Under the pieces are notes generated by a model, which saw only the letters and a list, made by a program, of their open reading frames with translations, had not been told where the DNA came from and ran no database searches. Of a stretch of 39,970 nucleotides of DNA, positions 916-34,358 are shown piece after piece (the first letter of the stretch is position 1; the number at the start of each line of letters is the position of its first letter). The position numbers were made by a program, and so were the translations under genes. The stretch is from Spirochaetia bacterium (GTDB lineage: Bacteria > Spirochaetota > Spirochaetia > DAHUYW01), in NCBI GenBank assembly GCA_030041455.1, contig JASHNV010000034.1, forward strand, positions 1 to 39,970, given 5' to 3'.

Positions 916-1823
916 CGGACATCGCTTCCTTCGAAGGGCCGCTCTTCGCCGACGGCGGGGACCCCTTCGCGCCCTTCGGAGATCTGACCGGCTCCCGAGA
1001 GCTGCCCGCGGAGCTTCGCTCGCGCTTCGCGGCTCTCGTCTGGGGGTACTATCGCGCGCACCCTCGGCGCTTTCCCTGGCGCGAGACGACCGATCCCTAC
1101 GCAATTCTCGTCTCCGAGCTCATGCTGCAGCAGACCCAAACCGAGCGCGTCGAGCCGAAGTACCGTTCCTTTCTCGGCCGCTTCCCGACCTTCGCCGCGC
1201 TCGCGGCCGCCACGCTCCGGGAGGTCCTCGAGGAATGGCAGGGGCTCGGCTACAACCGCCGCGCGAAGGCGCTGAAAAACTGCGCCGAGCGCGTGATCCG
1301 GGAGCACGGAGGGGTCCTTCCCGGGCGCGTCGAGGTCCTCCGTGCGTTCCCCGGAATCGGACCCTACACCGCGGCCGCGGTCTGCGCCTTCGCTTTCCAG
1401 GCGCCGGTCGCGCTCGTCGAGACGAACATCCGGCGCGTCTTTATCCACTACTTCTTCAAGGACCGCGACGGGGTGCGCGACCGCGAGATTCTCCCCCTCG
1501 TCGAGGCGACCGTCGACCGCGCCGACCCTCGCGGCTGGTACTACGCGCTCATGGACTTCGGCTCCATGCTGCGCGGGCGCCTCCCGAATCCGAACCGAAG
1601 AAGCGCGCACTACGCGCGCCAGGCGCGCTTCGAGAACTCCGACCGCCAGATCCGCGGAGGCATTCTCAAGGCGCTCGCGTCGAGCGACGCCGCGGCGGCC
1701 GACGAGCTTGCGGCGATGCTGCGCGTCGATCCCGAGAGGGTCGCGCGCGCGCTCGGCGGCCTTGAGACCGACGGGCTCGTGGTCCTCGAGGAGCCCGGCC
1801 GCTATCGCATCCCGGATCGTTAA
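912..1823 (+). CDS. mutY: MutY-like A/G-mismatch DNA glycosylase lacking the iron-sulfur cluster
   Basis: The HhH-GPD superfamily protein has 303 residues from GTG 912, chosen because it overlaps the upstream stop as GTGA; an in-frame ATG at 864 lacks a ribosome site. Residues 56-80 carry the MutY/EndoIII signature PWRETTDPYAILVSELMLQQTQ, with the expected catalytic Glu at 69. The helix-hairpin-helix FPGIGPYTAAAV lies at 146-157. Three features are odd. The residue at the catalytic Asp position is Glu170 (VETNIRRV rather than LDxNVxRV). The C-x6-C-x2-C-x5-C cluster ligands are absent; the only cysteines are 124 and 158. No MutT-like recognition domain follows, only about 60 residues that look like a winged helix (248-303). 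It probably excises adenine opposite 8-oxoguanine, but EndoIII-like activity on other lesions is possible. Confidence 0.85.
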   Translation: MTDIASFEGPLFADGGDPFAPFGDLTGSRELPAELRSRFAALVWGYYRAHPRRFPWRETTDPYAILVSELMLQQTQTERVEPKYRSFLGRFPTFAALAAATLREVLEEWQGLGYNRRAKALKNCAERVIREHGGVLPGRVEVLRAFPGIGPYTAAAVCAFAFQAPVALVETNIRRVFIHYFFKDRDGVRDREILPLVEATVDRADPRGWYYALMDFGSMLRGRLPNPNRRSAHYARQARFENSDRQIRGGILKALASSDAAAADELAAMLRVDPERVARALGGLETDGLVVLEEPGRYRIPDR

Positions 1824-26006: not shown

Positions 26007-26034
26007 TATTGTAATTAAGTCACTTGACATAATT
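26007..26034 (+). promoter_or_regulatory. Operator A: palindrome over the -35 box of the sulfate-transport operon
   Basis: At 26013-26034 the left half AATTAAGTCA, a 2-base centre CT and the right half TGACATAATT pair at nine of ten positions. Read on the minus strand, 26027-26007 gives GTGACTTAAT followed by T and ACAATA, almost the same as operator B at 30161-30182. The palindrome overlaps TTGACA (26024-26029), the position expected of a repressor site. The regulator is unknown and not encoded in the window. Confidence 0.7.
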
Positions 26035-26052
26035 GAGTATATCGCGTATAGG
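26024..26052 (+). promoter_or_regulatory. Promoter of sbp-cysTWA
   Basis: TTGACA (26024-26029), a 17-base spacer and TATAGG (26047-26052) give a strong vegetative promoter in an island of A+T-rich sequence. The predicted start near 26059 implies a leader of about 245 bases before sbp. Confidence 0.75.
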
Positions 26053-26091
26053 AAACCGGCTCGAACGTACCGAGCTCCAAAGGAGGAGCGC

Positions 26092-26127
26092 ATGGCGGCG
26101 CCCTTGAAATGTCCGTGTCGTCGCTAG
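26092..26127 (+). CDS. Cysteine-containing leader peptide
   Basis: An ATG with a strong Shine-Dalgarno (AAAGGAGGAG, 26079-26088) opens an 11-codon frame, MAAPLKCPCRR, ending at TAG 26125-26127. Two of the last five residues are cysteine, the end product of the pathway, and both use TGT, whereas cysH uses only TGC. Its place in the leader of a sulfate-import operon, immediately before a stable hairpin, fits a cysteine-sensing leader peptide. Comparable cysteine leader peptides are known in actinobacteria; I know of none described in spirochaetes. Confidence 0.6.
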   Translation: MAAPLKCPCRR

Positions 26128-26299
26128 TCCCCGCGAAGGCCGGGACCCCGGTCACGGGAGGCCGCACGGACCTCTCGCGGGGATAGGCCATCGTCTCTGG
26201 GACCTCGACGAGACGCGGCTTCGCGTTGAAAGCGGACGGAGCGAGGTCCTCCCGTGTTCAATTTTCTTATTTCGACAATCTACGGCTGGAATTGGAGGA
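26128..26299 (+). promoter_or_regulatory. Structured leader (candidate attenuator) of sbp-cysTWA
   Basis: TCCCCGCGA (26128-26136), starting one base after the leader-peptide stop, pairs perfectly with TCGCGGGGA (26175-26183); AGG/CCT inside extends the stem past a bulge. A second hairpin pairs CGTCTC (26192-26197) with GAGACG (26210-26215). Further on, TCCTCC (26247-26252) is complementary to the sbp Shine-Dalgarno GGAGGA (26294-26299), and CAATT (26259-26263) to AATTG (26290-26294), allowing ribosome-site occlusion. No T-run follows the first hairpin, so intrinsic termination is not evident. It matches no riboswitch I know. Confidence 0.5.
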
Positions 26300-26304
26300 A
26301 TGCT

Positions 26305-27366
26305 ATGGCCGCACAGAGAAACATCAGGTCGCTCGCTTCGATCGTCGCGCTTCTCGCGACCTTCGTGCTCGCCGGGGTTCCCGCGTACGCGTCGGGAAAC
26401 AGCGAGACGCAAGCCTCGGCCGCGGGCTCGACGGGCACCGTCAAGCTGCTCAACGTCTCCTATGATCCGACGCGGGAGCTCTATGAGGACATCAACGCGG
26501 CGTTCGAGAAGTACTGGAAGGACAAGACCGGGCAGACCGTGGAGATCGAGCAGTCGCACGGCGGCTCGGGCGCCCAGGCGCGCGCGGTCATCGACGGTCT
26601 CGAAGCCGACGTCGTCACCCTCGCGCTCGCCTACGACATCGACGCGATCGCGGCGCACGGTCTGATCTCGCCGGACTGGCAGTCGCGCCTTCCGGACAAC
26701 AGCACGCCCTACACCTCGACCATCGTCTTCCTCGTGCGGGCGGGCAACCCGAAGGGCATCAAGGACTGGGACGATCTCGCGAAGCCGGGCGTCTCGGTCA
26801 TCACGCCGAACCCCAAGACCTCAGGCGGCGCCCGTTGGAACTACCTCGCGGCATGGGGCTACGCGCTGAAGCACGACGGAGGCGACCAGGCGCAAGCGGA
26901 GGCCTTCGTGCGCGCCGTCTACAAGAACGTTCCGGTTCTCGACTCGGGCGCTCGCGGATCGACCACGACCTTCGTCCAGCGCGGGATCGGCGACGTGCTC
27001 GTCGCGTGGGAGAACGAAGCCTTTCTCGCGCTGAAGGAGCAGGGAGCCGGCAGCTTCCAGATCGTCGTCCCCTCGGTCTCGATCCTCGCCGAGCCGCCGG
27101 TCGCGGTGGTCGACAAGAACGTCGACAAACACGGCACCCGGGCGGTCGCCGAGGCCTACCTTCGGTTCCTCTACACGCCCGAGGCGCAGACGATCGAGGC
27201 GCGGAACTTCTATCGGCCGAGGCTCCAATCGGTGGCGTCGGCCTTCTCGAGCCAGTTTCCGAAGGTCGAGCTCCTCACGATCGATCAGTTCGGCGGGTGG
27301 GCGGCGGCCCAGAAGACCCACTTCGCCGACGGCGGGATCTTCGATCAGATCTACCAGGTCCAATAG
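26305..27366 (+). CDS. sbp: Sulfate-binding periplasmic protein
   Basis: The protein has 353 residues including a Sec signal peptide: MAAQRNIRS, the hydrophobic [16 protein letters not shown], then AYA before SGNSET, with cleavage likely after Ala30. There is no lipobox cysteine. It is the sulfate/thiosulfate solute-binding protein of the CysPTWA/Sbp-CysTWA importer. [101 protein letters not shown] and FLYTPEAQ are characteristic of the family. ATG 26305 follows GGAGGA by five bases. It lies three bases before cysT. Expression is probably controlled by operator A and the structured leader. Confidence 0.93.
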
Positions 27367-27369
27367 CCG

Positions 27370-28218
27370 ATGCTCCTGAAGGAGCGCAGCATCCTGCCGG
27401 GATTCGTCCCGGCCTGGAGCTACACGGTGCTCTACGTGAGCCTCGTGCTCCTGATCCCCATCGCGGCGCTCGTGCTCAAGGCGGCCACGCTCTCGTGGCC
27501 GCACTTTTGGGCGGTCGTCGGGAGCCCTCGCGTCGTGGCCTCCTACCGCCTCAGCCTGCTCGCTTCCCTCGCCGGGGCGGGCGCGAACGCGGTGTTCGGG
27601 CTTCTCATCGCGTGGGTCCTGACCCGCTACCGCTTCCCCGGCCGAAGGATCGTCGACGCCCTCATCGACCTTCCCTTCGCCATGCCGACGGCGGTCGCCG
27701 GGATCGCGCTCACGACGATGTTCAGCCCGGTCGGCCTCCTCGGGCGCGCGCTCATCCCCCTCGGCGTCAAGGTCGATTTCACCCCGCTCGGCGTGGGAGT
27801 CGCGCTTACCTTCATCGGGCTGCCCTTCGTCGTGCGGACCGTCCAGCCGGTTCTCCTCGACCTCGACGCGGAGGTCGAGGAGGCGGCGGCCTCGCTCGGG
27901 GCGAGCCGGGCGCAGACGGTCCTTCGGGTGATCCTGCCGAGCATCCTCCCGAGCTGGCTCACCGGCTTCGCGCTCGCTTTCGCCCGCGCGCTCGGAGAGT
28001 ACGGCTCGGTCGTCTTCATCTCGGGGAACCTCCCGGGGAAGACTGAGATCAGCCCCCTCATCATCATCACGAAGCTCGAGCAGTTCGACTACGCGGGGGC
28101 GGCCGCGGTCGCGACCGTCATGCTCGTCTTCTCGTTCCTCCTGCTCCTCCTCATCAACCTGCTGCAGTGGTGGAGCGCGAGGCGTTTCGAGCCCGGCGCC
28201 CGGCGTCAACCGGCATGA
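27370..28218 (+). CDS. cysT: Sulfate ABC transporter permease CysT
   Basis: The inner-membrane permease has 282 residues and about six hydrophobic helices, starting at TVLYVSLVLLIPIAALVL. The EAA loop EEAAASLGASRAQTVLRVILP, which contacts the CysA ATPase, is at about 172-192, and the C-terminal GEYGSVVFISGNLPGKTEISPLIIITKLEQFDYAGA is typical of CysT/CysU. It pairs with CysW to form the sulfate channel. ATG 27370 lies three bases after sbp with only a weak AGG upstream, so it is probably coupled. The stop overlaps cysW as ATGA. Confidence 0.94.
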   Translation: MLLKERSILPGFVPAWSYTVLYVSLVLLIPIAALVLKAATLSWPHFWAVVGSPRVVASYRLSLLASLAGAGANAVFGLLIAWVLTRYRFPGRRIVDALIDLPFAMPTAVAGIALTTMFSPVGLLGRALIPLGVKVDFTPLGVGVALTFIGLPFVVRTVQPVLLDLDAEVEEAAASLGASRAQTVLRVILPSILPSWLTGFALAFARALGEYGSVVFISGNLPGKTEISPLIIITKLEQFDYAGAAAVATVMLVFSFLLLLLINLLQWWSARRFEPGARRQPA

Positions 28219-29084
28219 TCGAGCAGGCGCTCCGGGCCGAGCCCGCGCGGAGGAGCGAGGCGACCGACGAACGGCCCGTCGTCCGCGGAGCCCTCATCGT
28301 CGTCGCGCTGCTCTTCGTCGCGGTTTTTCTCGTCCTCCCGCTCCTCGTCGTCTTCGGCCAGGCCTTCGCGAAGGGCGTCGTTTTCTACGCGCGCGCGATC
28401 GAGGAGCCGGATTCCCTCGCCGCGATCCGCCTCACCCTGGTCACGGCTTTCGCGGCGGTCTCGCTCAATCTCGTCTTCGGCGTCCTCGCGGCGTGGACCA
28501 TCGCGAAGTTCCGCTTCTTCGGCCGGAGCGTCCTCGTCACGGTCATCGATCTGCCCTTCGCGATCTCGCCGGTCGTCTCGGGGCTCGTCTTCGTCCTCCT
28601 TTTCGGCGCCCAAGGCTGGCTCGGAGGCTGGCTTTCGGCGCACGACATCAGGATCGTGTTCGCGCCGCCGGGGATCGTTCTCGCGACGGTCTTCGTCACC
28701 TTCCCCTTCGTCGCCCGGGAGCTCATCCCCGTGATGCAGGCGCTCGGGAACGAGGAGGAAGAGGCGGCGATCGTGCTCGGCGCGAGCGGGCTGCAGACCT
28801 TCTTCCGCGTGACCCTCCCCAACGTCAAGTGGGGCCTCATGTACGGCATCGTCATCTGCAACGCGCGCGCGATGGGCGAGTTCGGAGCGGTTTCGGTGGT
28901 CTCCGGGCACGTGCGGGGCCTCACCGACACCATTCCCCTTCAGGTGGAAATCCTGTACAACGGATACAGCTTCACCGCCGCCTTCGCGATGGCTTCGCTC
29001 CTCGCGTTCCTCGCGATCGCGACCCTCGTCGTGAAGAGCCTCGTCGAGTGGAGGCTGAGCCGGGAGTCGAAAGATGGGAATTGA
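28215..29084 (+). CDS. cysW: Sulfate ABC transporter permease CysW
   Basis: The permease has 289 residues and about six helices, beginning [23 protein letters not shown]. The EAA loop [31 protein letters not shown] and the C-terminal [31 protein letters not shown] are CysW hallmarks. The N-terminal ~24 residues are charged and cytoplasmic. ATG 28215 shares four bases with the cysT stop; the end overlaps cysA by 11 bases. Confidence 0.94.
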
Positions 29085-30111
29085 CGTCCGCGCGGTGAGC
29101 AAGCGCTTCGGCGGCTTCAGCGCGCTCGAGGATGTGAGCCTCGAAGTGAGATCGGGCGAGCTCCTCGCGCTGCTCGGGCCCTCGGGCTCCGGCAAGACGA
29201 CGCTCCTTCGCATCATCGCGGGGCTCGAGGTCGCCGACTCCGGGTCGCTCATCTTCCACGGAGAGGACGCCACCGCGAGGCGGGCGCGCGACCGGGAGGT
29301 CGGCTTCGTCTTCCAGCACTACGCCCTGTTCAAACACATGACGGTGTTCGAGAACGTCGCCTTCGGCCTTTCGGTGAAGCGGCGGCGGCTCGGCCTCACC
29401 CGCGCGGAGATCGCGCGGAAGGTCGGCGATCTCCTCAAGCTCGTGCAGATGGACTGGCTCGCCGACCGCTACCCGAGCCAGCTCTCCGGAGGCCAGCGGC
29501 AGCGGGTGGCGCTCGTGCGGGCGCTCGCGGTGGAGCCGAAGGTCGTGCTCCTCGACGAGCCCTTCGGCGCGCTCGACGCGAAGGTCCGCGGCGAGCTCAG
29601 GCGCTGGATCCGGCGCCTGCACGACGAGATCCACCTCACGAGCGTGTTCGTGACGCACGACCAGGACGAGGCGCTCGAGGTCGCGGACCGGGTGGTCATC
29701 ATGAACCAGGGGAAGATCGAGCAGATCGGCACGCCCGAGGAGGTCTACGACCGCCCGGCGAATCTCTTCGTCTACACTTTCCTCGGGAACGTCAATCTCT
29801 TCAGGGGCAGGCACGCGCGCGAGGGCGTCCACCCGGAGAACGGCGGGGGAGAGGCCGACGCCTACGTCCGTCCGCACGAGATCGAGCTCTTCCGCGAGCG
29901 CCGATCGGAGCAGTCGGTGCCGATCGTCGTGAGCCACGTCCGGGCGATCGGCCCGATCGTGCGTCTCGAGCTCAAGCGCGCCGACACCGGCGACCTCCTC
30001 GAGGCGGAGCTCACGAAAGAGCGCTATCGCGAGATCGGTCTCGCGGTGGGGGAGGCGGGGTTCGTCGACCCGCGCAACCTTCGCTTCTTCGAGAGCGACT
30101 ATTCCATCTGA
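29074..30111 (+). CDS. cysA: Sulfate ABC transporter ATPase CysA
   Basis: The ATPase has 345 residues. Walker [10 protein letters not shown] is at 35-43, the Q-loop in [12 protein letters not shown], signature LSGGQRQR at 137-144, Walker [13 protein letters not shown] at 157-168, and the H-loop in [26 protein letters not shown] leads into a C-terminal TOBE-like domain of about 100 residues ([13 protein letters not shown]...). It powers the Sbp-CysTW importer. The start overlaps cysW. Only about 16 bases separate its stop from the -35 box of the next transcription unit, so read-through into that operon is possible. Confidence 0.94.
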
Positions 30112-30127
30112 GCCTGGGCCCGCCGGC

Positions 30128-30156
30128 TTGACAAAGCGCGCCGCGACAAATATAAC
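30128..30156 (+). promoter_or_regulatory. Promoter of the cysteine-biosynthesis operon
   Basis: TTGACA (30128-30133), a 17-base spacer and TATAAC (30151-30156) are near consensus. The predicted start near 30163 lies inside operator B and leaves about 37 bases of leader with GGAGG before GTG 30200. Confidence 0.8.
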
Positions 30157-30160
30157 CTAC

Positions 30161-30182
30161 TCACGTGACTTAATCTACAATA
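30161..30182 (+). promoter_or_regulatory. Operator B: half-site over the start of the cysteine operon
   Basis: TCACGTGACTTAAT, then CT and ACAATA, repeat the operator A motif with one mismatch and one extra base, in the opposite orientation. Around the TCACGTGA core the left arm is degenerate (about five of ten positions). It covers the expected transcription start just downstream of the -10 box, consistent with repression. Confidence 0.65.
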
Positions 30183-30199
30183 GGAGCTCGGAGGACAGA

Positions 30200-30937
30200 G
30201 TGAGCGGCACAGTTTGGATCGTCGGCGCGGGGCCCGGGGACCCGGAGCTCCTCACGCTGAAGGCGGCGAGGCTCATCGCCGAGGCGGAGGTCGTTCTCTA
30301 CGACGCCCTCGTGAACGACGAGGTGCTCGAGGGGATCTCGGCGGAGTGCCTGTTCGTCGGCAAGCGCCGCGGATTTCGCGCCTTCAGCCAGGAGGAGATC
30401 AACAGGATGCTTCTCGACGCGGCGCTGCGCCGGGAGCGGGTCGTGCGCCTGAAGGGAGGAGACCCGTTCGTGTTCGGCCGCGGAGGCGAAGAGGCGCTTT
30501 TCCTTCGCGCCCACGGCATCCGCTGCGAGGTGGTGCCCGGCGTCTCGGCGGCGCTTGCCGCGGCGGCGGGGTCGGGCATCCCGCTCACCCACCGCGGGCT
30601 CTCCTCGAGCGTGTCGCTCTGCGCCGGAGCGCCGGAGGAGAAGATCGTTTTTCCCGAGACCGACACGGTGGTCTACTACATGGGCGCCTCCTCCTTGAGC
30701 CGGATCTTCGCGAAGGCGATCCGCTCGGGCTTGAGCGCCGAGGCGCCGGTCGCCCTCATCCACAACGCGAGCCTTCCCGACGAGGCCGTGTGGGTCCGCT
30801 CGGCCGGCGAGCTCCGCGACGGGACCCCGGACTTTCCCTCCCCGCTCCTCGTCATCGTCGGCGAGGTCGTCCGCCTCGCGCCGTCGCTCGCCGATCTCGC
30901 CTCCTCCGCTCGAGCCGGGGCGGGAGGCGGGCGATGA
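30200..30937 (+). CDS. cobA: Uroporphyrinogen-III C-methyltransferase
   Basis: SUMT, 245 residues from GTG 30200 (GGAGG five bases upstream). It methylates uroporphyrinogen III twice with SAM, giving precorrin-2 for siroheme. GAGPGDPELLTLKA is at 9-22, VLYDALVND at 32-40, RLKGGDPFVFGRGGEE at 83-98, VPGVSAALAAAAGSGIPLTHRG at 112-133 and YMGA further on. It corresponds to the C-terminal domain of CysG; the N-terminal functions are on a separate gene four positions downstream. Being first in the sulfite-reductase operon, it serves siroheme rather than cobalamin. The stop overlaps cysH as ATGA. Confidence 0.93.
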   Translation: MSGTVWIVGAGPGDPELLTLKAARLIAEAEVVLYDALVNDEVLEGISAECLFVGKRRGFRAFSQEEINRMLLDAALRRERVVRLKGGDPFVFGRGGEEALFLRAHGIRCEVVPGVSAALAAAAGSGIPLTHRGLSSSVSLCAGAPEEKIVFPETDTVVYYMGASSLSRIFAKAIRSGLSAEAPVALIHNASLPDEAVWVRSAGELRDGTPDFPSPLLVIVGEVVRLAPSLADLASSARAGAGGGR

Positions 30938-31704
30938 GCGGCGCGTCGCTCGCCGCCGAGAGGCTCCTTCGGGAGACCGAGGGCCTCGCCGACGAAGCGT
31001 TCATCGCCGCGGTCGCGCGCTCCTTCCCGGGGCGGATCGCCTTCGCCTCCTCGCTCGGGCCCGAGGATCAGGTGCTGACCCATCTCCTCATGGCCCAGGA
31101 CCCGGGCATTCCCATCTTCACGCTCGACACCGGGAGGCTCCCCGAGGAGACCTACGAGCTCATTCAGGAGACGCGCTCCTTTTTCGGCAAGGAGATCGAG
31201 CTTGTCTTCCCCGACTCGGCCGAGGTCGAGGAGCTCGTGAGGGAGCGCGGCCCGAACCTCTTTTACGAGAGCGTGGACAATCGCAAGGCCTGCTGCAACG
31301 CCCGGAAGGTTCTTCCGCTCAAGCGGAAGCTCGCAGGCTACGACGCCTGGATCACGGGCTTGCGCCGAAGCCAGTCGGTGACCCGCGGCGGGCTCGCCCG
31401 CGTCGAGCACGACGCGGCGAACGACAAGGTGAAGATCAATCCGCTCGTCGACTGGTCGCGCGAGGCGGTCTGGAGCTACCTGCGCGCGCACGCGCTGCCC
31501 TACAACAAGCTCCACGACCGGGGCTTCCCGAGCATCGGCTGCGCGCCGTGCACGCGGGCGGTGCGGCCCGGGGAGGACGAGCGGGCGGGCAGGTGGTGGT
31601 GGGAGCGCGCCGATCAGCGGGAATGCGGCATCCACGTTCAGGACGGAAAGGTCACGCGAAGACGCATCGAGGTCGAGAATGTACGAGCACCTAGACAAGC
31701 TTGA
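30934..31704 (+). CDS. cysH: Assimilatory APS reductase, iron-sulfur type
   Basis: The PAPS/APS reductase family protein has 256 residues. [15 protein letters not shown] and [16 protein letters not shown] form the nucleotide site. Cys120-Cys121 (KACCNARKV) and Cys203-x2-Cys206 (GCAPCTRAV) are the [4Fe-4S] ligands that mark APS- rather than PAPS-specific enzymes, and the C-terminal catalytic cysteine is Cys231 in ECGIH. It therefore reduces APS directly to sulfite and AMP with thioredoxin, which makes APS kinase unnecessary. The start overlaps cobA (ATGA) and the end overlaps cysD by 26 bases. Confidence 0.95.
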
Positions 31705-32560
31705 AGCGCAGAGCGTCTACATTTTCCGCGAGGCCTACCGCAAGTTCAAGAACCTCGCGATGCTCTGGTCGATCGGAAAGGACAGCACCGTGCTCCTGTG
31801 GCTCGCGCGAAAGGCTTTCCTCGGCCACGTTCCCTTCCCGCTCGTGCACATCGACACTTCCTTCAAGATACCGGAGATGATCTCCTACCGGGACCACCTC
31901 GCCTTAAGCTGGCGGCTGAACATGGTCTACGGCCAGAACACGGAGGCGCTTCGGGCGAAGCGGACCTTTCCCGACGGCGCGCTCTCGCGCACCGAGTGCT
32001 GCCAGGCGCTGAAAAGCGACGCGCTCAGGCACACGCTCTCAGGCGAGTGGACCCGCTTCCGGCTCGACCACAAGCTCAAGAAGTACGTGCCCGACGAGAA
32101 CACCGAGCCCTACACCGGCGTCATCGTCGGGGTGCGCGCCGACGAGGAGGGCAGCCGCTCGAAGGAGCGCTATTTCTCGCCGCGCGACAAGCACAACGAC
32201 TGGAACGTCGACGACCAGCCGCCGGAGCTGTGGAATCAGTTCAAGACCGACTTCGCCCCCGGGACTCACATCCGCATCCATCCGCTCCTCGATTGGACCG
32301 AGCTCAACATCTGGGAGTACATCCACCGCGAAAGCATTCCGGTCGTCTCGCTGTACTTCGACTGCGGGGAGGGGACCCGCTACCGCTCCCTCGGGTGCTA
32401 TCCGTGCACGACGCCGGTGGCGTCGAAGGCGCGGAACGTCGAGGAGATCATCGAGGAGCTTCGCACCGGCAAGTTCTCGAACGTCGCCGAGCGCTCGGGC
32501 CGAGCGCAGGACCTCGAGGGGGCCGGGCTCGAGGTCCTGCGCCGAAGCGGGTACATGTGA
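31679..32560 (+). CDS. cysD: Sulfate adenylyltransferase subunit 2
   Basis: CysD, 293 residues, the catalytic subunit of ATP sulfurylase that forms APS from sulfate and ATP. The pyrophosphate loop SIGKDST is at 31-37 (the N-type PP-loop SxGKDS). [67 protein letters not shown] and [14 protein letters not shown] are all CysD hallmarks. It needs the CysN GTPase, encoded 10 bases downstream. ATG 31679 lies within the cysH 3' end, so translation is coupled. Confidence 0.97.
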
Positions 32561-32570
32561 CGGGGGAGCG

Positions 32571-34358
32571 ATGCAGCGAGAGCGATTGAACCTCGTCGTG
32601 GTCGGCCACGTCGACCACGGCAAAAGCACGGTGATAGGGAGGCTCCTCGCCGATACCGGCTCGCTTCCGGAAGGCAGGCTCGAGCAGGTGAAGGCGACCT
32701 GCGCGCGCAACGCGAAGCCCTTCGAATACGCCTTCCTGCTCGACGCGCTCGCGAACGAGCAGAGCCAGGGGATCACGATCGATACCGCGCGCTGCTTCTT
32801 CAAGTCGAAGACGCGCGATTACATCATCATCGACGCGCCGGGCCACATCGAGTTCCTCAAGAACATGGTGACCGGCGCCGCGCGCGCCGAGGCCGCGCTC
32901 CTCGTGATCGACGCAAAGGAGGGGGTGAGGGAGAACTCCCGCCGCCACGGCTACATGCTCTCGATGCTCGGCATTCGGCAGGTCGTCGTCTGCGTGAACA
33001 AGATGGACCTCGTCGCCTACGCCGAGAGCGCCTACGAGGCGATCTCGGCGGAGTACGCCGCCTTTCTCGCGCGGATCGGCGTCCGCCCCGCCGCGTTCAT
33101 TCCGATCAGCGCGATCAACGGCGAGAACCTCATCGAGCCCGCCGCGAGCCTCGGCTGGTACCGGGGACCGGCGCTCCTCGATCTCATCGACGGGTTCGCG
33201 AACGAGAAGGCGAGCGACGAGAAGAGCTTCCGCTTCCCGGTGCAGGACGTCTACAAGTTCACCGAGTACGGCGACGATCGCCGGGTCGTCGCCGGGCGGG
33301 TGGAGTCGGGCTCGATCGGCGTGGGCGAGGAGGTGGTCTTCCTTCCCTCGAACAAGCGGGCTAGGATCCGGAGCATCGAGGAGTTCAGCCACGAGCCCCG
33401 CACGAGCGTCTCCGCGGGGCTCTCGACGGCGTTCACCGTGGAGCCCGAGGTGTACGTCCGGCCCGGGGAGGTCATGGTCCGCGCGGGGGACCCCCCGCCC
33501 ATGGTCGGAACCACGTTCCGCGCCAACCTCTTTTGGATGGGCCGCCAGCCGATGGTCCGGGGCCGGAAGTACAAGCTGAAGATCGCGACCGCCGAGGTGC
33601 CGGTTTGGCTCCGCGCCGTCCGCTCCGCGCTCGACGCCTCCGAGCTTCAGGCGGTCGAGGCGAAGGGCCAGATCGACCTCTACGACGTCGCCGACTGCGT
33701 CCTTGAGACCTTCAAGCCCGTCGCGGGCGACCGCATCGGCGACGTCGCCGCCACCGGACGGTTCGTCATCGTCGACGGCTTCGAGATCGCGGGCGGCGGC
33801 ATCCTGATCGAGCAGGCGAGCGAGGAGCGGAGCCTCGTGCGGGAGCACATCCGCGTCCGCGAGCGCGGTTGGGAGCGCACGCCGATCACGGCGGGGATCC
33901 GCTCGGCGCGCTACCAGCAGCGCTCGACGTTCGTCGTCGTCGCGGGCGAGGCCGACGTGGACGCGAGGCCGCTTGCGAGGCGGCTCGAGGAGCGCCTCCT
34001 CGAGCGCGGGCGCTTCGTCTACTACCTCGGGCTCTCCAACGCGCTTCTCGGCGTCCAGGCCGACGTCGGGGAGGACCGCTCCGAGTTCATCCGCCGCCTC
34101 GGCGAGGTCGCGCACCTGTTCACCGACGCCGGCACGATCCTCATCGCGACGGTCCCGGACGCCGACGACGACGAGCTCTCGATCCTGCGGGAGCTCAACC
34201 GGCCCAACGACATGCTCGTGGTGTCGCTCGGCGAGGGGCAGCTCGACGGGTCTCCGGTGGACCTTCGCCTCGCCGAAGGGATCGAGCCTGAGAGCGGCGC
34301 GCGCGAGATCGAGAGCCTCCTCATGCGGAACAACGTGTTCGTCGAGTACGCGATCTAG
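32571..34358 (+). CDS. cysN: Sulfate adenylyltransferase subunit 1 with relic APS-kinase domain
   Basis: The protein has 595 residues. The N-terminal ~430 form an EF-Tu-like GTPase that drives APS formation by CysD: G1 GHVDHGKST at 12-20, [11 protein letters not shown] near 68-77, [12 protein letters not shown] at 88-99 and NKMD at 143-146. After the beta-barrel, residues 447-595 align by pattern with APS kinase ([50 protein letters not shown]). The P-loop GLSGAGKST of true kinases is replaced by GEADVDARP (459-467), and the GDNVRHGL substrate motif by GLSNALLGV. The domain should not phosphorylate APS and may be structural or regulatory. ATG 32571 follows a GGGGGAG stretch. Confidence 0.93.

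Follow-up and report, generated by a model that had tools for sequence, protein, structure and literature searches.

A probable cysteine leader-peptide attenuator in front of the sulfate assimilation operon of a spirochaete

The window analysed here, a 39,970-nt stretch of DNA from a member of the Spirochaetia, carries on its forward strand the genes sbp-cysTWA-cobA-cysH-cysD-cysN, preceded by a leader that contains a short open reading frame (ORF) with a Shine-Dalgarno sequence (SD) and Cys codons, a hairpin (P1), a competing 9-bp helix and a U-rich tract. The gene content from sbp to cysN points to an operon for importing sulfate and reducing it on the way to cysteine. The features are as follows.

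26024-26052, + strand: promoter-like sequence TTGACA-17-TATAGG, read directly, with a predicted start site
26080-26088, + strand: SD of the leader ORF, AAGGAGGAG, read directly
26092-26127, + strand: leader ORF MAAPLKCPCRR, read directly as ATG GCG GCG CCC TTG AAA TGT CCG TGT CGT CGC TAG
26110-26112 and 26116-26118, + strand: TGT Cys codons 7 and 9 of the leader ORF, read directly
26125-26127, + strand: stop codon of the leader ORF
26128-26183, + strand: hairpin P1, proposed antiterminator or switch hairpin (perfect 9-bp outer stem, 26128-26136 with 26175-26183)
26153-26161, + strand: CACGGGAGG, within P1, 5' arm of the candidate competing helix and perfect complement of 26248-26256
26248-26256, + strand: CCTCCCGTG, putative 3' arm of the candidate competing, terminator-like helix
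26257-26272, + strand: U-rich tract TTCAATTTTCTTATTT, read directly, interrupted
26294-26299, + strand: SD of sbp, GGAGGA, read directly
26305-27366, + strand: sbp, sulfate ABC transporter substrate-binding protein (NCBIfam NF008022, E 4.1e-158), in agreement with the initial annotation
27370-34358, + strand: cysT, cysW, cysA, cobA, cysH, cysD and cysN (NCBIfam and Pfam)

Within the operon, cysteine codons are absent from sbp, cysT and cysA, and cysW has a single one (window 26305-30111), as expected of sulfur-sparing proteins. CysN (32571-34358) is fused to a partial APS-kinase domain, covering only positions 5-80 of 152 of Pfam APS_kinase and perhaps degenerate.

The 5' untranslated region would span approximately 250 nt from the promoter-like sequence, which the promoter scan missed because its -10 rule demands T at position 6. 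Direct reading confirmed both that the leader ORF has 11 codons with two TGT codons near its end and that it is strongly initiated, its SD lying in front of the ATG at 26092. Short ORFs of this kind are rare: in 20,000 dinucleotide shuffles of 26056-26304, a strong-SD short ORF with at least two Cys in its last nine residues arose four times, and never with AGGAGG plus ATG (0/20,000). A search of 1.04 Mb of single-strand sequence of this genome gave 105 short ORFs preceded by GGAGG or better; two of them had this Cys content, the second being antisense within dnaX. A pattern search for paralogous Cys leaders in this genome returned eight matches, against eight with a reversed-pattern control, and only the match in the window formed a short in-frame ORF. 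The peptides MFYICCR (L151) and MACSSCETV (L243) were discarded as Cys leaders, both being antisense inside genes. NCBIfam leader-peptide models gave no match to MAAPLKCPCRR, which was queried as a doubled copy because the 11-aa peptide is too short alone. Both Cys codons of the leader are UGU, a codon making up 8.6% of the Cys codons (64/748) in putative genes of this genome, which fits a slow sensing codon and fits unselected sequence equally well.

The hairpin had been described as a perfect 9-bp stem starting one base after the ORF; the stem stood, its arms TCCCCGCGA (26128-26136) and TCGCGGGGA (26175-26183) pairing perfectly, but strictly it begins at the very base that follows the stop codon. 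The window holds a single instance of the stem pattern and 100 shuffles held none, and a perfect 9-bp helix beginning 0-2 nt past the stop was seen in 0.6% of shuffles. The whole 56-nt hairpin has a folding energy of -35.2 kcal/mol (z -2.94), a stability that 1 of 200 shuffles reached. Folding was modelled at several transcript lengths, with the ribosome represented as a 31-nt block. With Cys7 in the A site of the waiting ribosome, the predicted pairing probability of P1 was 1.0, and with Cys9 there it was 0.96-1.0; once the stop codon occupied the A site the value was 0, which follows from the assumed footprint, under which the 5' arm then lies. According to these models, formation of P1 depends on the position of the ribosome, as in attenuators of the trp type. 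With the ribosome left out, the predicted probability varied with transcript length from 0.01 to 0.91, and the full leader favoured folds other than P1, which counts against transcription-level control.

A scan of the + strand from the leader to sbp for intrinsic terminators found none, and the best terminator candidate is a non-canonical one, the 9-bp helix between 26153-26161 and 26248-26256 that adjoins the U-rich tract. The models gave it a probability of 0.05-0.15 for a ribosome that has reached the stop codon and 0.00 in the other states. Such a helix was present in 0.3% of shuffles, and a P1-like together with a terminator-like helix in 1e-4 of them, by criteria chosen after the sequence was seen. 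The candidate has an 86-nt loop, an interrupted U tract and an equilibrium probability of at most 0.15, and the GC-rich leader allows many alternative pairings, so that picking one is partly post hoc. The initial proposal that stalling at the Cys codons sets a ribosome against the hairpin is partly supported: in the models P1 folds when the ribosome is paused and is blocked when it reaches the stop codon, but for the step from hairpin to regulation neither an intrinsic terminator nor a predicted SD switch was found.

The model that we prefer, with a probability of about 0.62, is that the leader is a cysteine-responsive leader-peptide attenuator acting at the level of transcription. Ribosomes would initiate at 26092. 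A shortage of Cys-tRNA(Cys) would hold them at codons 7 and 9, both UGU, with their leading edge at approximately 26128, leaving P1 (26128-26183) free to fold and the operon expressed. With cysteine in good supply, the ribosome would reach the stop codon and cover the 5' arm of P1, so that P1 could not form and 26153-26161 would be free to pair with 26248-26256 next to the U-rich tract, and transcription would tend to end before sbp. Rho, instead of an intrinsic terminator, may be the terminating agent.

A related but in our view unlikely alternative is that the Cys leader acts on the translation of sbp or via Rho, so that pausing would make either the start of sbp or a Rho loading site within the 177 untranslated nt more or less accessible. 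The outcome of the terminator scan agrees with this, and so do the mycobacterial cys leaders, in which terminators are not obvious and which the literature presents as translation attenuators (PMC1262725; PMC13236596 citing Canestrari 2020). The sbp SD could moreover pair with TCCTCC at 26247-26252, and in the one relative with a similar leader (G095, see below) only some 40 nt separate the leader stop from sbp, too short a stretch to hold a terminator. Against this alternative, the folding models gave the pairing of TCCTCC with the sbp SD a probability near 0. The predicted accessibility of the sbp SD was 0.34-0.35 in every ribosome state in the window and 0.43, likewise constant between states, in G095; a switch based on SD sequestration was rejected on these grounds.

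We compared the leader with 13 other genomes of the class that have a clear sbp. Related leaders lacking the ORF or its Cys codons had been named in advance as evidence against attenuation, and indeed no Cys leader was found before sbp in 12 of the 13, but the remaining one, G095, has a similar leader. It consists of the GTG-started MSRYRPNQRPAAVTGSDCCR, which ends in DCCR-stop, has AGAGGAGG in front, aligned opposite AAGGAGGAG of the window, and is preceded by a promoter-like TTGACA-17-TATACC, so that promoter, spacing and SD are co-linear in the two leaders. Their local alignment score of 32 exceeds those of all 500 shuffles, if by the narrow margin of one over the best (31), and on this account shared ancestry is suggested, not proven. 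The order and family of the source genome comprise two genomes of one genus, and the other of these (G001) has cobA-cysH and neither sbp nor the leader. The leader of the window is in this respect one unique sequence, which also counts against the transcription-level model. Across the phylum, about 20 more sbp loci yielded no Cys leader with a strong SD. A class-wide search for the CCR-stop pattern gave many matches, unfiltered for reading frame, and its length limit left out even G095. At L263:1253-1375, a possible Cys leader MSYRKFDMISLQDIDTLKITCAQYCS lies directly 5' of a hairpin before sbp; it has no SD and could be due to chance, such ORFs being expected approximately once per 4 kb in the surveyed loci by our estimate.

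Other elements were seen in front of the sulfate genes of spirochaetes. Palindromic, operator-like sites lie at the sbp promoter in six relatives (L005 to L010) and before cobA in L145 (approximately 1030-1060, minus strand). Such palindromes, seen at sulfate gene promoters of many spirochaetes, include CATAGTTTAACTATG (L005, L006), CCTAGCAAACAGATAGGT (L010) and CTAACGTGAGTAAGTTAG; as a guess, they possibly serve an Rrf2-type regulator. In three related genomes from another class of the phylum (L271, L272, L276), the motif TTTAGTCGTATATAAA is repeated 5' of sbp and is probably the operator of another regulator.

The distribution among relatives bears on a second alternative, which we regard as quite improbable: that the leader ORF is a chance ORF in a structured 5' untranslated region with another role, or next to a transcription factor site, with control exerted at the promoter. 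Most class relatives have operator-like palindromes at the promoter and no such ORF, and the rare UGU codons would be expected of unselected sequence as well. A chance ORF accounts poorly, however, for the strong SD at good spacing, the rarity of Cys ORFs in the genome, the fit of Cys to the pathway, the stop codon set exactly against the hairpin and the similar leader of G095. That the leader houses a riboswitch binding SAM, SAH, O-acetylserine or a similar metabolite is hardly credible: it is long and structured and SAM riboswitches often control sulfur genes, but it is not conserved among relatives, a strong uORF would be needless for a riboswitch, and an Rfam search of the leader for riboswitches, T-boxes and leaders gave no match at the gathering threshold and nothing plausible when hits up to E 1 were admitted, on which the riboswitch reading was set aside.

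Outside the spirochaetes, a canonical Cys attenuator turned up at every one of the eight sbp loci retrieved from Chlorobiaceae (L047, L068, L076, L081, L095, L097, L109, L111), placed approximately 90-250 nt 5' of sbp. The leader ORF has 28-32 codons, with CC or CCC midway and one more Cys at its end or close to it, and is followed by a canonical terminator, GCCGGTTC...GAACCGGC-T8 or longer. The ORF closes with a TCCGG-type segment complementary to the terminator's 5' arm, and pairing of the two yields the antiterminator. In folds computed on transcripts before the 3' arm of the terminator is made, the antiterminator had a probability of 0.99-1.00 for a ribosome waiting on the first CC codon and of 0 for one that had reached the stop, in 7 of 7 distinct cases. 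In full-length equilibrium folds the terminator was dominant in every ribosome state, a behaviour common to attenuators that act co-transcriptionally. The SDs of these leaders are weak, and the leaders were seen only once the SD requirement was dropped; an earlier survey of 80 sbp loci, which required an SD, had yielded no Cys leaders elsewhere. We found no Rfam family for this attenuator and no paper on it in the literature searched. In the sbp tree, the sequence from the window shared a moderately supported group (94/89) with one from Elstera and one from a member of the Chlorobiaceae, in a topology distorted by the long branches of three sequences read on the wrong strand (L004, L012, L015), and no homology was evident between the leaders of the window and of the Chlorobiaceae. 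The finding shows the same gene, sbp, under a Cys leader in bacteria other than Actinobacteria.

Taken together, the leader of the window is a probable cysteine leader-peptide attenuator of a known kind. It is very likely that its ORF senses cysteine, whether by a transcriptional or by a Rho-dependent or translational route. This is the best reading because two Cys codons lie directly 5' of cysteine-making genes, the SD is strong, such ORFs are rare, the hairpin stands at the edge of the ribosome, and G095 and the Chlorobiaceae have Cys leaders of their own. As in Cys leaders generally, an ORF with initiation signals lies in the 5' leader of a sulfate gene and has its Cys codons near its end. 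We give an even chance to the broader proposal that sulfate assimilation came independently under Cys-sensing, ribosome-mediated attenuation in several phyla, namely in Spirochaetota (the window and G095) and Chlorobiota (the eight Chlorobiaceae loci), beside the known Actinobacteria and the alphaproteobacterial cysS, the spirochaete form being a stop-abutting hairpin with no canonical terminator. The literature searched held no report of a Cys leader-peptide attenuator in Spirochaetota. If the proposal is true, amino acid leader-peptide control extends to spirochaetes and cysteine is sensed via ribosome pausing in several unrelated phyla, cysteine limitation being a signal that reports on the whole sulfate pathway. 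The leader of the window is a directly testable element of 250 nt, and the Chlorobiaceae attenuator is the cleaner case.

A 2005 study predicted Cys leaders 5' of the cys operons of Mycobacterium, Propionibacterium and Bifidobacterium, with no terminators, and Rho-dependent termination was proposed for those of mycobacteria (Seliverstov 2005, PMC1262725). The mycobacterial leaders are cited as cysteine-responsive, with a reported regulatory role in M. smegmatis, in later papers (PMC9094748, PMC13236596). Precedents reach beyond the actinobacteria named in the initial annotation, to the Rhodobacterales cysS leader (PMC8632094) and the Chlorobiaceae described here. With the actinobacterial cys leaders the window shares a short ORF before a cys operon, Cys codons near the stop and the lack of an obvious intrinsic terminator; unlike their Cys runs and their leaderless state in mycobacteria, it has C-P-C, a strong SD and a stable hairpin directly 3'. 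The Rhodobacterales leader (uORFC-8-2, PMC8632094) likewise combines a uORF with two Cys codons, hairpins and a cysteine-related gene, but there the Cys codons are tandem and lie inside the first stem, the terminator is an intrinsic one with a U-tract, and the target is cysS, not sulfate uptake. With the Chlorobiaceae attenuator the window has in common a Cys leader 5' of sbp in a sulfate operon, whereas the former has 28-32 codons with CC/CCC, an antiterminator arm inside the ORF approximately 40 nt past the Cys codons and a canonical U-tract terminator. In E. coli trp attenuation, the stop codon lies near the 5' arm of the antiterminator, and a paused ribosome permits the first hairpin while one at the stop codon blocks it. 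The window differs from this type in having no canonical terminator hairpin plus U run; it resembles it in that its stop codon adjoins the 5' arm of P1 and in that, with P1 as the putative antiterminator, the same logic would apply, the paused ribosome permitting the hairpin and the ribosome at the stop codon blocking it.
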